From a virus, in the IMG/VR virus record IMGVR_UViG_3300031274_000006, positions 1-40,830 of that record: a stretch of 40,830 nucleotides of DNA; one strand, given 5' to 3'. This document shows positions 27,008 to 40,256 of this stretch, one piece after another; positions within the stretch are counted from its first letter, which is position 1, and each line of letters begins with the position of its first letter. The translations under genes and the position numbers were made by a program. Below the pieces are notes generated by a model. It searched no databases. It saw only the letters and a program-made list of their open reading frames with translations, and was not told the origin of the DNA.

Positions 27008-27036
27008 ATTGTACCACGCCCCGCCCCACCTGTCAA
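27008..27036 (-). promoter_or_regulatory. Promoter of minus-strand operon
   Basis: On the minus strand TTGACA (27036-27031), exactly 17 bases, then TACAAT (27013-27008). It is close to the sigma70 consensus. A GTGCAAACGCACAAACATGC stretch just downstream has repeated CAAAC/CACAAAC elements that may be an operator. Confidence 0.85.
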
Positions 27037-27198: not shown

Positions 27199-27228
27199 TT
27201 GACAGAGTGAACACTTCTGTGCTATACT
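27199..27228 (+). promoter_or_regulatory. Promoter of plus-strand early operon
   Basis: TTGACA (27199-27204), 18 bases, TATACT (27223-27228). It is divergent from the minus promoter 163 bp away and precedes AAGGAGG and GTG 27274. Between the two -35 boxes (27037-27198) I see no supported gene; a 40-codon frame there lacks a ribosome site. Confidence 0.82.
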
Positions 27229-31975: not shown

Positions 31976-32163
31976 ACAAGGAAACCGTTGCAGCAAACAT
32001 CATCGCCAGCCTACTATGCTCCGCCTTTTGGGGCGGCGTCATGCTCGCCGCGACGCACTCGTGGGTGTCGGCTGCCGTGACGATGGCTGTGTGCTACCTG
32101 GGCACGTCGCTGGTGGTCGGGCTATTCCAGAACAGCGCGGACCCGAGAGAGGTGGGGCGGTGA
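31972..32163 (+). CDS. Small membrane protein with two helices
   Basis: 63 residues from ATG 31972 (ATGA overlap). Hydrophobic helices at about 8-26 and 30-50 (WVSAAVTMAVCYLGTSLVVG). The third small membrane protein in 700 bp; all precede the secreted protease, suggesting a cell-envelope gene set. Function unknown. Confidence 0.67.
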   Translation: MNKETVAANIIASLLCSAFWGGVMLAATHSWVSAAVTMAVCYLGTSLVVGLFQNSADPREVGR

Positions 32164-32441
32164 ACTGTCCATATTGTAATGGAACGGGTGAGCGCGATAC
32201 GGGCGGCTTTGACCAGTCTGACCATCCCATCAGCGTCGAGTGCCCCGACTGCAAAGGGACGGGCAAGGTAGACCCGCGCATCCTGGAGCGCAACGGGCTC
32301 CTGGGCCGCATCCGTGCGCTGCAGGCCAGCATCGACTATGCCGCGCCAGAGCTGGAGGGCATGTATCGCACCAAGCGCGACGAATGCGCGTGCCGAGTGG
32401 ACGAACTGAGCGAGGCGCTGCGACAGGACGGGCTGCTATGA
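32160..32441 (+). CDS. DnaJ-type zinc-finger protein
   Basis: 93 residues, GTG 32160 in a GTGA overlap. Two CxxCxGxG motifs, CPYCNGTG and CPDCKGTG, are the hallmark of DnaJ cysteine-rich zinc centres. A C-terminal helical pair follows (LLGRIRALQASIDYAAPELE). No J domain. Such mini-proteins are common in phages and may bind a chaperone client or RNA polymerase. ATGA overlap couples it to the protease gene. Confidence 0.75.
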   Translation: MNCPYCNGTGERDTGGFDQSDHPISVECPDCKGTGKVDPRILERNGLLGRIRALQASIDYAAPELEGMYRTKRDECACRVDELSEALRQDGLL

Positions 32442-33544
32442 CCACCCGCCTTCTCCTAGTCCTAACGCTCGCGCTCCTGCTGGCTGCTCCCGCCACCGCA
32501 CAGTCGCCGCAGTACGAGAGCGGCGTCATCGCCGTGCGCAGCGACGCCGGACGGTGGGAATTGCTGCGCGTGGCACCGGGGACGGAGGAGGCGCACCTCG
32601 CCTCGTTGGCGTCGGCTGGGCGCGAGACGACCCGGCTGCACATCTTGACGATCGAGCAGCAAGATCCACCGCCCAGGCCGCTGCCGTTCGACTCGCCGAT
32701 ATACCTGCCTACCGTCACCCGAGACTATGACCCGCACGTACCTACGGACCCGCTCTGGTCGGAACAGTGGGACATGCAAACGATAGGCGTACAGCGCCAG
32801 GATGGTGACGCTGGCGCTATCGTCGCCGTGCTCGACACCGGGTGGTATGCACTGGACGACGAGCCGCACATGGTGTCCGGCTGGGACTGCGTGGACGAGG
32901 ACGACGACCCGTCGCCCATCGCCAACCACGGAACGCACGTGGCCTCCGTGCTCGCCGCGCCACACAATGACCTGGGGATTGCCGGGGCCTGCGGTGAGTG
33001 CAGGCTGATGGTAGTGCGCGTCTGTTCCTACGACTGCGCGGAAACGGACATCTACGAGGGCGTCGAGTACGCCGTGGCGCACGGCGCTCGCGTGATCAAC
33101 ATGTCCCTGGCCGGCTCGTTTCTGATGCCCTACCTGCACCAAGCGGTGCAGGATGCCGTGGCGGCCGGCGTCGTGGTCGTGGCGGCAGCGGGCAACCAGG
33201 GCACGGCGAGTCCGATGTATCCGGCGGCGTGGCCTGAGGTCGTGGCCGTGTCATCCGTGGACGCCGACTTGGCGCTGGCATATGATTCAAGCTACGGATA
33301 CATCGACTTTGCGGCACCTGGGGACATGGTGCTCGGCGGCTGTGGCAGCGGCGATAACTACTGCTACAAGCGCGGAACGAGCATGGCAGCCCCACACGTC
33401 GCCGGTGCATTTGGGCTGGTGCTGTCGGAGCATCCCGAGTGGACTTCACAGCAGGCATACAATTGGCTCGCGTCGCACGCGCTCGACCTCGGCGAGCCGG
33501 GATGGGATGCCTGGTACGGGTGGGGGATGGTGAGGGTAAGATGA
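32438..33544 (+). CDS. Secreted subtilisin-like serine protease (S8)
   Basis: 368 residues. An N-terminal signal peptide is visible (TTRLLLVLTLALLLAAPATA, AxA site before Gln-Ser). Residues 22-115 form a short pro-region, including YLPTVTRDY. The S8 catalytic set is complete: D133 in VAVLDTGW, H164 in NHGTHVASVLA, oxyanion N253 in AAAGNQG and S315 in GTSMAAPHVAG. The mature enzyme should act outside the cytoplasm, in periplasm, at the surface or in released lysate. A complete exported protease is unusual in a tailed phage. It is in a plus-strand operon coupled by ATGA to the zinc-finger gene and directly followed by another zinc-ribbon gene. Confidence 0.93.
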   Translation: MTTRLLLVLTLALLLAAPATAQSPQYESGVIAVRSDAGRWELLRVAPGTEEAHLASLASAGRETTRLHILTIEQQDPPPRPLPFDSPIYLPTVTRDYDPHVPTDPLWSEQWDMQTIGVQRQDGDAGAIVAVLDTGWYALDDEPHMVSGWDCVDEDDDPSPIANHGTHVASVLAAPHNDLGIAGACGECRLMVVRVCSYDCAETDIYEGVEYAVAHGARVINMSLAGSFLMPYLHQAVQDAVAAGVVVVAAAGNQGTASPMYPAAWPEVVAVSSVDADLALAYDSSYGYIDFAAPGDMVLGGCGSGDNYCYKRGTSMAAPHVAGAFGLVLSEHPEWTSQQAYNWLASHALDLGEPGWDAWYGWGMVRVR

Positions 33545-34008: not shown

Positions 34009-34037
34009 TTGACAGCGGAGAGGGATCATGGTAAGAT
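34009..34037 (+). promoter_or_regulatory. Promoter ahead of structured RNA and ParB-Dam gene
   Basis: TTGACA (34009-34014), 17 bases, TAAGAT (34032-34037). The same -10 TAAGAT and 17-base spacing recur at 40141-40169. Predicted start near 34044. Confidence 0.85.
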
Positions 34038-34043
34038 GGGTAC

Positions 34044-34188
34044 AAGCCTAGACCGAAGTGCGGGTGTTCTGTTTTGCGGACACCTCTCACAAACCCATAC
34101 GAGTTTGCGGCGAAAGAGCCCGCTATCTACAGCGCCCGCCTTCGGTCTAGGCAACCAAGGTGTCCGTCGTAGGTAGTGGGCTTTTTTG
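34044..34188 (+). ncRNA. Highly structured RNA / leader with competing folds, unknown family
   Basis: The region starts just after a promoter and ends at a T6 tract. Helix P1 pairs 34046-34058 with 34140-34152 (13 perfect pairs) and continues 34060-34064 with 34135-34139. The P1 loop holds GGUGUUC/GGACACC (34063-34069 with 34078-34084) and CAAAC/GUUUG (34090-34094 with 34103-34107). The 3' tail repeats complements to this loop: GGUGUCC 34159-34165 with 34078-34084, and 34169-34182 with 34117-34130 (14 pairs with two G-U). These cross P1, so pseudoknots or a switch are implied. It could be a free ncRNA or an attenuator for the gene at 34211. Confidence 0.72.
34117..34188 (+). terminator. Terminator-like long hairpin at end of structured RNA
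   Basis: AGCCCGCTATCTAC (34117-34130) pairs with 34169-34182 and is followed by TTTTTT (34182-34187). The loop of 38 bases is long, so efficiency may depend on whether P1 forms. Confidence 0.65.
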
Positions 34189-34210
34189 CGTTCACACGGA
34201 GGGCGAGACC

Positions 34211-35551
34211 GTGAAGGTACACGTTTCTGATCTGACCGTTGACCCCGAAATTCAGCTTGCTTCGCGTGGCACTGACCCCAATACAGTGCAGGACTACGTG
34301 ATCGCCATGACAAACGGTGACGAATTCCCCGCGATCGTTGCATTCCGCGAGAATGGCACGATTCTACTATCGGCGGGATTCCACCGGGTAGCGGCGGCCC
34401 AATTTCTTGGACTGGCAGAGATTGAGGCAGAGATCCGCGAAGGCAGTCGCCAAGACGCCATGGTCTATGCTGCCATCGACAACGCCAAGAATGCGCGTCC
34501 GATGTCTCAAGCTCAAAAGCGCGAGGCCGGCGCGCGGCTGCTGAGGCTGACGGATTGGAGCCAAGAGCGGATTGCCAAAGAGCTTGCTGTGGGTATAGGC
34601 ACCATTTCGCGCTGGGCATCATCTCTTCCAAACGGAAGAGATAAGCCAGTCACCGTCACCCGCAATGGTACGACCTACACGATGGATATATCAAACATCG
34701 GCAAGGCGCAGCCCGAGGAAAGAGAACTGCCCACACCGCCGGCGATTGAGCTTGCAGAAAAGATGGTTGCGCAAGGCGAGTGTCCGAGCAAGGAAGAATG
34801 GGCAATGGAGCCAGAGACCTATACCGGACACTGCCACAAGGGATGCTATGCCCCCCGCGTTTTGACGAAGGGCTCAGTCTATGAGTATGGCGTCTATGGC
34901 GTCTACGTCTGCTCGGGCTGTGGTTACGCATATCCACCCTTCTGTGCTCCTGCCGCAATGTCTGATGCCGAGCTGGCACAATATAATCGAGGACTGTCGG
35001 AATTTGACAAGGACGAAGAGGAGCGCGAGCCCGAGCCCGACCCCATGGCCGTCCACTACTCCAGTAAGACCGCTGAGCACTACACCCCGCAGGTCATCAT
35101 AGACGCCACGCTTGCTTGCTTGGGCGAGATTGACCTGGACCCATGCTCAAACAGCCAGCTCAGTCCCAACATACCCGCGGCCAGGCACTTTACGGCGGAC
35201 AACGACGGCCTGATGATGCCCTGGGGCGGGCGCGTCTACATGAATCCGCCTTACGGGAGAGAGATTGATGACTGGGTAGCCAAGCTATGCCTGGAGTATG
35301 AGCGCGGCGATGTGACCGAGGCCATCGCCCTTGTGCCAGCACGCACCGACACGCAATGGTGGCTACGACTACGCGACTATCCGGTGTGCTTTATCATCGG
35401 GCGCCTGACGTTCGGAGGCAACACCGATCCGGCGCCGTTCCCATCTGCCGTGTTCTATCTTGGCAACGACATTGGCGCGTTCTATCACGCATTCTGTGAG
35501 CTGGGTGATTGCTGGCAGCGCATGGAGCCCGGCGTATCATTTGGAGAGTGA
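34211..35551 (+). CDS. ParB-like / zinc-ribbon / Dam-type DNA N6-adenine methyltransferase fusion
   Basis: 446 residues, GTG 34211 seven bases after GGAGGG; a frame from 34160 would start within the terminator. Residues 1-95 show a ParB/sulfiredoxin-like fold (SAGFHRVAAAQFLGLAEIEA). Residues about 100-145 have a ParB-type helix-turn-helix (QERIAKELAVGIGTISRWAS). A Cys cluster follows (HCHKGC ... CSGCGYAYPPFC). The C-terminal region from about 290 is a phage Dam-like methyltransferase with LDPCSN and the catalytic NPPYG (345-349), plus FTADNDGLMMPWGG. It probably methylates adenine at selected sites, with N-terminal modules giving specificity or control. Confidence 0.88.
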   Translation: MKVHVSDLTVDPEIQLASRGTDPNTVQDYVIAMTNGDEFPAIVAFRENGTILLSAGFHRVAAAQFLGLAEIEAEIREGSRQDAMVYAAIDNAKNARPMSQAQKREAGARLLRLTDWSQERIAKELAVGIGTISRWASSLPNGRDKPVTVTRNGTTYTMDISNIGKAQPEERELPTPPAIELAEKMVAQGECPSKEEWAMEPETYTGHCHKGCYAPRVLTKGSVYEYGVYGVYVCSGCGYAYPPFCAPAAMSDAELAQYNRGLSEFDKDEEEREPEPDPMAVHYSSKTAEHYTPQVIIDATLACLGEIDLDPCSNSQLSPNIPAARHFTADNDGLMMPWGGRVYMNPPYGREIDDWVAKLCLEYERGDVTEAIALVPARTDTQWWLRLRDYPVCFIIGRLTFGGNTDPAPFPSAVFYLGNDIGAFYHAFCELGDCWQRMEPGVSFGE

Positions 35552-35552
35552 G

Positions 35553-35990
35553 ATGAATCAAGGACAGAAGGCAAACGCTACGGGCAGAGAAGCAGAGGAC
35601 ATCATCGGTGGCGTCCTAATGCGGAAAGGCTGTCATGTAGAACGGCAAGTGGACATCGGGCCGAGCATCTATGATACCCCCATCTGTGCTGACTTCCGGG
35701 TGTTCGGGCTGCGCCAATACCCGAATGGCCTGATCATCGAATGCAAATGGCAGTCGGCTACGGGCAGCGTGGACGAGAAATTTCCCTACCTCGTTCGGAA
35801 CATCAAAGAGGTTTTCCCCCTGCCGACCATCATCGTTCTGAGCGGTGGCGGGTACAAGCCTGGTGCTGAGAACTGGCTGAGACACCAAGTAGATCACCAG
35901 CTTGTCGCAGTGATGAACTTGGAAGAGTTCATCACCTGGATGATGGACGCCGAGGCTGCTGGCGAAATCGTCAAGCAGACTCTTTGGTAA
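35553..35990 (+). CDS. PD-(D/E)XK family nuclease
   Basis: 145 residues, ATG 35553 one base after the methyltransferase stop. The core shows ADFRVFG with D47, then IIECKWQ with E63-C-K65, the D-xn-ExK active site. It is followed by FPYLVRNIKEVFPLPTIIVL and GGGYKPGAENWLRHQV, which completes the fold. Similar phage proteins resemble type II restriction-like or recombination nucleases. Directly following a Dam-like methylase, it may form a modification/cleavage pair, or act with ERF. No separate specificity domain is visible. Confidence 0.8.
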   Translation: MNQGQKANATGREAEDIIGGVLMRKGCHVERQVDIGPSIYDTPICADFRVFGLRQYPNGLIIECKWQSATGSVDEKFPYLVRNIKEVFPLPTIIVLSGGGYKPGAENWLRHQVDHQLVAVMNLEEFITWMMDAEAAGEIVKQTLW

Positions 35991-35999
35991 GGAGCTCCA

Positions 36000-36926
36000 A
36001 TGCCTAGCCGACGAATGATTGACCCATGCTTCTGGATGTCTGAGACGATGGCGTCGCTGACCGTGCGCCAACGCCTGCTCTTTATCGGGCTGTTCTCCAA
36101 CGCCGACGACCAGGGCCGATTGCGTGCCCACCCGGCGCTGATCCGCTCTACGGTGTTCCCCTACGAGGACATACCCCTATCGGACATTGAAAGCGACCTG
36201 GAGGCCCTACACGGCATTCAGAGCGTGTTCGTGTACACTACCGAGGGCAAGTCCTATCTACAGATCGTCAACTGGTGGAAGTACCAGTCACCACAGTGGG
36301 CCTATCCCTCAGACATCCCCGCGCCGAACGGTTGGCATGACCGCCTGCGGTATCGCCGGGACAACGAGGTGCTGACTGACAACTGGCCCACCAAGAATGA
36401 ACCCGAGCCTTTACCTAACGACTTACCTAACGACTTACCTAACGACAACGGCCAAGGCGATGGGTGGCCCCATAGAGTTAGGGTTAGCACTAGCGTTAGC
36501 AGTAGCGTTAACGATACAGAAGAACCCCCAAGGGGCGCTGACGCGCCCGCCGTTTCCTCGTCTCCCGTTCCTACTTGTTGGGATGACTGGGAAGAAGCCT
36601 ATAAGACCTACGCCAACACGCCAGCGCTTATCCGTCGCATGGTCGAAATACTCTATCCCGGCCTGGACCCACCTGACTATGGTGAGATAGGGGGTATCGC
36701 CAAGCGCATGGGCAAGGGCAAGGCCGGATTCAAGCGCCTTATGGGGCTCTTGTGGGAGTATAGCAAGCGCCCGCCCGACGGCGACCTGCTGCCGTACCTG
36801 TTACGGGTGCATTTGGGGAAAGAGCGCGACAACGGGCATGACAAACCCGACGTGACCTCAAGCGAGTATCGTAAGGCGCGCTACATGACCGACGCAGCGA
36901 TGCCGCTCGAAGTGGACGATACGTGA
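36000..36926 (+). CDS. Replication initiator / replisome organizer (DnaD-like context)
   Basis: 308 residues, ATG 36000 after AAGGAG. The N-terminus RMIDPCFWMSETMASLTVRQ, RLLFIGLFSNADDQGRLRAH and FPYED ... YLQIVNWWKYQ is the well-known phage replisome-organizer winged helix that binds the origin. The middle (about residues 135-185) is a low-complexity linker encoded by two iteron arrays (LPND repeats and VSxS). The C-terminal helical domain is DnaD/helicase-loader-like (TYANTPALIRRMVEIL). It should bind the origin in its own gene and recruit the host helicase. No other replication enzymes are present. Confidence 0.88.
   Translation: MPSRRMIDPCFWMSETMASLTVRQRLLFIGLFSNADDQGRLRAHPALIRSTVFPYEDIPLSDIESDLEALHGIQSVFVYTTEGKSYLQIVNWWKYQSPQWAYPSDIPAPNGWHDRLRYRRDNEVLTDNWPTKNEPEPLPNDLPNDLPNDNGQGDGWPHRVRVSTSVSSSVNDTEEPPRGADAPAVSSSPVPTCWDDWEEAYKTYANTPALIRRMVEILYPGLDPPDYGEIGGIAKRMGKGKAGFKRLMGLLWEYSKRPPDGDLLPYLLRVHLGKERDNGHDKPDVTSSEYRKARYMTDAAMPLEVDDT
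36411..36446. repeat. Three perfect 12-bp iterons (TTACCTAACGAC)
   Basis: Exact tandem triplet at 36411, 36423 and 36435. Because the unit is four codons it encodes LPND three times. The reverse complement carries CGTTAGG, related to the second array. Probable initiator-binding part of the replication origin. Confidence 0.88.
36479..36514. repeat. Three imperfect 12-bp iterons (TAGSGTTARC type)
   Basis: TAGGGTTAGCAC, TAGCGTTAGCAG and TAGCGTTAACGA at 36479, 36491 and 36503. Shared core CGTTAG or variants is in inverted orientation relative to the 36411 array; 32 bp separate the two arrays. Together they look like a phage origin inside the initiator gene, as in lambda O. Confidence 0.82.
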
Positions 36927-39932: not shown

Positions 39933-40157
39933 ATGGCAGAGCCGGGGCGAGCGGCGTGGCGATGTCCGCAATGTGGGTTCGTCGTGGGCTGGGTAAACGA
40001 TGACAATCAGCTCGTCATCTGGCGTTATCCCGGTGGCTTCATCATCCTCCGCTGTGGCACGTTCGCGTGCGCGTGCGGGGCGGTGGTGGAGTGGCGCCAG
40101 GCTGCCCCGCCAAGGAGGGTTGACAAAATGTCAACTAAACTTGACATCGCGCCTTAA
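39933..40157 (+). CDS. Zinc-ribbon protein overlapping downstream promoter
   Basis: 74 residues, ATG 39933 six bases after GGAGG. CPQC and CACG with an intervening strand (NQLVIWRYPGGFIILRCG) form a zinc ribbon. Its last codons (VDKMSTKLDIAP) are the DNA of the operator palindrome and -35 box of the next promoter. Confidence 0.7.
   Translation: MAEPGRAAWRCPQCGFVVGWVNDDNQLVIWRYPGGFIILRCGTFACACGAVVEWRQAAPPRRVDKMSTKLDIAP
40120..40146. promoter_or_regulatory. TTGACA/TGTCAA operator-like palindrome at holin promoter
   Basis: TTGACA (40120-40125), three A, TGTCAA (40129-40134) form a perfect inverted repeat. A third TTGACA (40141-40146) is the -35 box, 21 bp (two helical turns) from the first. 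A repressor or activator bound to the palindrome would touch the polymerase site. Confidence 0.72.
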
Positions 40158-40169
40158 TTGTGGTAAGAT
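40141..40169 (+). promoter_or_regulatory. Promoter of holin-like/lysis and packaging unit
   Basis: TTGACA (40141-40146), 17 bases, TAAGAT (40164-40169); the same boxes and spacing as the 34009 promoter. Predicted start near 40176. It may drive genes 40276 through the terminase on the circular genome. Confidence 0.87.
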
Positions 40170-40175
40170 GAACTA

Positions 40176-40256
40176 GCAGGCTGGAAGGGCGGATAATCCC
40201 CCAGCCACCCCGGAGATGAGCGCCCGGAACCCCATTGGGTTTCGCGGCGCTTTTTT
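40176..40256 (+). promoter_or_regulatory. Short structured leader ending in a terminator
   Basis: GGCTGG (40179-40184) pairs with CCAGCC (40201-40206), with inner GGG/CCC. GGGCG (40187-40191) can instead pair with CGCCC (40221-40225), part of the terminator arm, which would free polymerase to read through. An attenuator or riboswitch-like leader for gene 40276 is plausible; alternatively an 80-base ncRNA. Confidence 0.55.
40220..40256 (+). terminator. Rho-independent terminator within lysis leader
   Basis: GCGCC (40220-40224) pairs with GGCGC (40246-40250); inner AACCC/GGGTT (40228-40232 with 40237-40241) closes a CATT loop. TTTTTT follows at 40251-40256. Confidence 0.85.

Follow-up and report, generated by a model that had tools for sequence, protein, structure and literature searches.

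A putative bistable transcription attenuator at the head of phage replication genes, recurring by architecture in unrelated leader sequences

What is the short, strongly folded RNA that appears to be transcribed immediately ahead of a ParB-Dam gene in this phage, and does it belong to that gene? The window (the whole 40,830-base phage record analysed here) had initially been annotated as carrying an RNA of no known family at this place, with its own promoter, a long closing helix, two inner hairpins, a 3′ tail complementary to two loop segments and a terminator, and a trans-acting RNA, a riboswitch-like attenuator and a decoy against RNA-guided defence had been offered as roles. All of the noted elements are present, at coordinates that were exact or within 1–2 nt, whilst no support was found for the decoy.

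The promoter is of the sigma-70 type, near-consensus and on the plus strand, as are all leader parts below (TTGACA-17-TAAGAT, 34009–34037; −35 box 34009–34014, a 17 nt spacer, −10 box 34032–34037, with a TG before the −10 box). The leader RNA of ca. 144–145 nt would run from 34044, a start placed by the −10 box, to the end of the U-tract at 34187. Its 5′ end carries P1a (34046–34058), the 5′ strand of the putative antiterminator helix, which forms 13 perfect pairs with P1b (34140–34152); beyond one bulged U, seven more pairs join the extension strands GCGGGTG (34060–34066) and CGCCCGC (34133–34139), so that P1 totals 20 pairs, the upper end of the 18–20 first reported. The 5′ extension strand, which is invariant in the nearest relative (the L002 leader, below), is also usable in the inner hairpin P2 (34062–34085, GGGTGT...ACACC); in predicted folds of the growing RNA P2 forms first and is then displaced by the P1 extension. 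The second inner hairpin, P3 (34090–34107; CAAAC at 34090–34094 with GTTTG at 34103–34107), has a corresponding hairpin in L002. As for the tail, T1b (34158–34166) makes nine pairs with T1a (34077–34085), not the seven originally counted, a complementarity also found in L002, whilst the longer pairing stands at 14 or above: T2b (34169–34187), the terminator 3′ strand with its U6 tract (34182–34187), makes at least 14 pairs with T2a (34114–34130). The ribosome-binding site of the next gene, GGAGGG, follows at 34198–34203, 11 nt 3′ of the U-tract. Further upstream, two strong divergent promoters (TTGACA-TACAAT at 27008–27036 on the minus strand, TTGACA-TATACT at 27199–27228 on the plus strand) are likely to be an early control region. 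A short distance before the leader, in the early region, lies a subtilase-family (S8) serine protease gene (32240–33544), and positions 32016–32441 encode a small protein with CxxCxGxG zinc motifs which is weakly like Anti-TRAP and DnaJ central domains, below Pfam cut-offs.

The leader structure is real and not a product of chance: the window leader was more stable than 200 of 200 shuffled sequences (fold z = −5.3), and the L002 leader gave z = −5.4. As the 3′ strand of P1 lies inside the T2 loop, P1 and T2 compete, which bears out the mutually exclusive folds of the initial annotation. Their predicted energies are −60.2 kcal/mol for the P1 state and −61.4 kcal/mol for the T2 state, a gap of ~1 kcal/mol.

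Independent evidence for both helices comes from L002, which was found via terminase relatives (83% identity) and carries its leader at L002:1957–2137. All 30 of the 30 P1 and T2 pairs are kept between the two leaders, with no broken pair, and seven have changed on both sides, five in P1 and two in T2, against zero to one in controls with slid partners; only these two leaders can be aligned, so the covariation rests on two sequences. Compensatory changes, which the initial annotation had named as the sign of a genuine fold, are thus present. Upstream of the L002 leader lies a relative of the zinc-motif gene of the window, an order inferred across contig ends because these overlap, and replication genes lie downstream. 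Both ends of the corresponding record G001 (L089:1–700 and L002:1–700) overlap with scattered mismatches, which suggests that two strains were assembled into a genome that is circular or permuted. The gene next to the L002 leader is not ParB-Dam, and the RNA therefore belongs to a position rather than to that gene.

Sequence similarity did not extend the family beyond this pair. A covariance model built from the two leaders matched only L002 among 50 related records; in 400 genomes from a single phylum its one match was weak and partial. In blastn (E up to 10) the window RNA gave only short chance matches in the phage and plasmid collections, as did the L002 copy against phages; matches in mycobacteriophages, short and ascribed to chance, overlap a region adjoining an integrase gene. 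Motif patterns returned L002 and chance-looking matches from viral contigs and nothing further of note among those of the matches listed from genome contigs that were scored, and ParB-Dam used as bait yielded no viral or genome locus. Since the two-sequence model gave nothing further of note, we searched instead for the layout: a T2 ending at a U-tract, a P1 linking the 5′ end to the T2 loop and a promoter just upstream (promoter ≥9/12, T2 score ≥28, P1 ≤−25 kcal/mol, 80–175 nt from −10 box to U-tract), with cut-offs chosen after the first members were known. In 2.49 Mb of phage loci, a set which is partly redundant and biased in its sampling towards terminase relatives, this descriptor picked out nine distinct leaders, vs. 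none in 74.5 Mb of locally shuffled sequence, a control that does not preserve real promoter–terminator units; looser cut-offs found ten vs. ~0.75 expected.

The nine are the window leader, those of L002, L091, L101, L289 and L078, two in L326 (record G453) and one common to L092 and G453, so that a single phage, G453, holds three; the leader of L077, with the same helices and a weaker promoter, is a tenth. A near-consensus promoter occupies the equivalent place in most of the other leaders, and nine of ten units combining a promoter with a wide-loop terminator have a P1 of ≤−25 kcal/mol. When 5′ ends were shuffled, the real one beat at least 95% of them in eight of nine cases (≤4.2% paired as well). 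The exception is L289, whose P1 was matched by 334 of 1000 shuffled 5′ ends and is absent from its predicted fold; failing this check (33%) makes its membership doubtful. Beyond the window and L002 the leader sequences are unrelated, no exposed sequence conserved across them was found, and P1 varies in sequence from leader to leader, also among those of a single phage. Two further candidates, L059:4110–4340 and L102:17763–17970, were set aside as another kind, located ahead of capsid/scaffold genes; the two resemble each other in layout, with a strong promoter and ~200–220 nt before a wide-loop terminator, and this stretch may encode a small protein from its 5′ end.

Across the leaders, the predicted course of folding is broadly shared. 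Before T2b is synthesised the predicted fold is dominated by P1 in the window, L002, L092, L077 and L078 leaders, whilst the leaders of L091, L101 and G453 show only parts of it, in L091 and L101 the inner part only; in the full-length RNA, T2 is the predicted minimum for nine of the ten leaders, L002 being the exception. On a nested path from P1 to T2 the barrier is ~49 kcal/mol in the window and 27–49 kcal/mol among leaders with a predicted P1 state, so that a standing P1 should not be replaced during the passage of the polymerase, unless by a pseudoknotted route, and the decision must then fall early, at P1a. The same barrier makes alternative folds the simpler reading of what had been annotated as pseudoknots. 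On paper the tail-to-loop helices do cross the closing helix; the energy models ignore pseudoknots, and P1 might coexist with part of T2 in a partial pseudoknot. A coexisting triple-crossing pseudoknot of P1, T1 and T2 was rejected as the main reading: linkers of 0–11 nt would have to span P1 in several members, and T1 is not general among the leaders.

The position of these leaders is more constant than their sequence. In all ten, 9–30 nt separate the end of the U-tract from the start codon that follows (the terminator strand itself holds the likely ribosome-binding site in L101 and L289), and eight of the ten head a replication-module cluster, which favours the attenuator among the roles first proposed. 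In the window the ParB-like and adenine methyltransferase (Dam) gene (34211–35551) is indeed the first gene after the leader, followed in the same cluster by genes for a PD-(D/E)XK nuclease-like protein (35460–35990) and a replication initiation protein (36000–36926), all on the plus strand. Elsewhere the first gene differs, with several downstream functions in the relatives assigned by eye: the L002 leader is followed by a 107-aa ORF, an HNH-like protein and a confirmed relative of the window initiation protein; that of L091 by a short ORF, a protein with a ParB-like start and an MT-A70 methylase domain, and a likely initiation protein; that of L101 by an HNH-like protein, a PriCT-2 primase domain and a confirmed relative of the window initiation protein; and that of L289 by an HTH_36 protein and then a DnaA/DnaC-like ATPase. 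Replication-like proteins, by inspection, follow in L077 and L078. G453 encodes a DUF3102/MT-A70 methylase, a 172-aa nuclease-like protein (by inspection) and a protein resembling the window initiation protein. A second leader, 1.15 kb upstream, precedes a small CxxC ORF and then an RNA ligase gene (PF09414) in the unit at L326:5055–6051. The third runs antisense to head genes and precedes a 72-aa ORF; in this moron-like unit (L277:1881–2216; L092:9100–9440) the leader and the 72-aa protein are identical in both records.

The locus thus presents a promoter, two helices that covary, two states of nearly equal predicted stability and an architecture that recurs. As in attenuators generally, promoter, leader and intrinsic terminator stand directly before a gene, and a helix that competes with the terminator carries compensatory changes (in two sequences). 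We consider it probable, with appreciable room for other readings, that the leader is a cis-acting bistable transcription attenuator of the early/replication operon, with P1 as the antiterminator. It would form the 5′ leader of an operon running from ParB-Dam through the nuclease to the replication-initiation genes. RNA polymerase would start at 34009–34037, and P1a would pair with P1b ~80 nt later, giving a very stable helix before the last terminator strand is made. With P1 standing, T2, whose loop holds P1b, could not fully form and the polymerase would read on; were P1 prevented or undone, T2 would form, transcription would stop at the U6 tract and a 145-nt RNA would be released. What we infer is an antiterminator role for P1, the occurrence of both outcomes and a regulated switch. 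As P1 sequences differ between leaders, the input should either ignore sequence or be the leader's own sequence. Candidates of the first kind would be polymerase speed, a phage or host elongation factor or a structure-binding protein, and a common protein would fit the presence of three leaders in one phage; a candidate of the second would be the terminated RNA, whose pairing with new transcripts would account for the differences among the P1s. The evidence speaks against a metabolite riboswitch: no conserved aptamer was found, and the window RNA had no match in Rfam 15 at the gathering score, riboswitches included, with only weak sub-threshold ones, in line with its annotation as no known family. 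A leader peptide was rejected, as no convincing ribosome-binding site and ORF common to the window and L002 was found.

The terminated 145-nt RNA would exist under an attenuator as well, and could act in trans. It is conceivable, though we think it rather unlikely, that this RNA is the main product, a trans-acting small RNA with read-through being incidental; in a special form it would pair via P1b/P1a with its own new transcripts and force termination, as autogenous feedback or superinfection immunity in the manner of satellite phage P4. The unit has its own promoter and a strong terminator, the P1s differ between leaders as self-recognition needs, and neither P1 arm, nor any P1-like sequence, occurs again anywhere in the window. 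Terminated prophage leaders that act in trans do exist, such as IsrK of Gifsy-1 (PMC4825925), and the antisense attenuation of pIP501 repR (PMC4981023) offers a further precedent of a general sort for terminated RNA acting on new transcripts. However, a U-tract abutting the start region of the next gene in ten of ten leaders would be odd for a stand-alone RNA, no exposed sequence is conserved across the members, and there is no sign that the window phage is temperate. The most far-reaching version is a tentative proposal that we hold to be doubtful: the terminated leader RNA would recognise its own nascent leader via P1, as an RNA-only gate to the replication programme with leader-specific feedback or immunity and orthogonal copies coexisting in one phage, an undescribed class defined by its architecture.

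An improbable alternative is a constitutive promoter and terminator resembling lambda pR′-tR′, passed only with a phage antitermination protein, where P1 would be a stable fold or a protein loading site. The layout of promoter, short RNA, terminator and operon does match lambda pR′, three units in one phage would again suit a common protein, and the window holds a second promoter–terminator unit at 40141–40256. This reading leaves the P1 complementarity unexplained, however; under the same descriptor the lambda pR′ region itself shows the terminator, but its P1 is weak (−13.3 kcal/mol), and none of the window proteins tested, which covered the small ORFs in part, was recognised as an antitermination protein. 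The unit at 40141–40256 consists of a promoter with the same −10 box (TTGACA-17-TAAGAT), a short hairpin RNA and a strong terminator, followed by a small ORF near the record end; it is without a P1-type helix and resembles a pR′-like late leader.

Attenuation of the pT181/pIP501 type, in which an antisense RNA across the leader would bind P1a and let the terminator form, follows the same logic as in plasmid rep leaders, among them that of repR with RNAIII as the inducer of attenuation (PMC4981023), but is highly improbable here. A consensus scan of eight leaders, all but the two G453 operon leaders, found no promoter-like site of ≥8/12 on the opposite strand inside the leader, nor one in the 200 nt that follow the U-tract of the window, L002, L091, L078, L077 and L092 leaders; weak 8/12 sites occur on the opposite strand ~90–160 nt downstream in L101 and L289. 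Finally, the L002 copy lies inside a long open frame, but the covariation, the distance-matched promoters and the nine vs. zero leaders in shuffles leave a chance or coding-constraint artefact scarcely credible. A zinc-ribbon-like open frame across the L002 copy was rejected as an explanation, as the window copy carries a stop.

If the attenuator reading holds, an RNA switch common to uncultured tailed phages stands before their replication genes, with fold and layout kept and sequence not. Homology searches would then miss it, so it could be common and unnoticed. It would also make a testable claim on the timing of replication in these phages, and offer, as sets made by nature, attenuators that differ from one another within a single architecture, with three present in the same phage.

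Among known systems, the order of promoter, short RNA, intrinsic terminator and operon is that of the lambda pR′-6S RNA-tR′ unit, which serves the late genes and is Q-dependent; unlike the window leader, lambda pR′ showed no strong P1 in the same scan. In satellite phage P4, the leader-encoded CI RNA controls the replication operon by premature termination, and the P4 stretch scanned showed no promoter–P1–T2 signature at the family thresholds. For IsrK of Gifsy-1, transcription from one prophage promoter either terminates as a small RNA or continues as the message of the ORFs that follow (PMC4825925), yet IsrK acts in trans on translation of the long isoform, and its architecture and gene context differ from those of the window leader. 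A shared logic is seen in the rep leaders of pT181 and pIP501/pAMbeta1, where a 5′-proximal antiterminator competes with an intrinsic terminator (PMC3753616; PMC4981023): here, too, a leader ahead of replication gene(s) sets an antiterminator near the 5′ end against a terminator. In these plasmids the switch is worked by a counter-transcribed antisense RNA, whereas no antisense promoter was found for the window leader, in which P1a, unlike in pT181 and pIP501, sits at most a few nt from the putative 5′ end and finds its partner in the loop of the terminator. Riboswitches, T-box and ribosomal-protein leaders likewise use mutually exclusive antiterminators and terminators, but keep a conserved aptamer or protein site, whereas no sequence is conserved family-wide here, and the large ornate phage RNAs GOLLD and ROOL reach several hundred nt and match Rfam, whilst the window RNA has 145 nt and no match. 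A search of part of the literature brought up no account of phage leaders that form a family with this architecture. Attenuators are a known kind of element, of which this leader architecture, judged from sequence, looks like an undescribed form.
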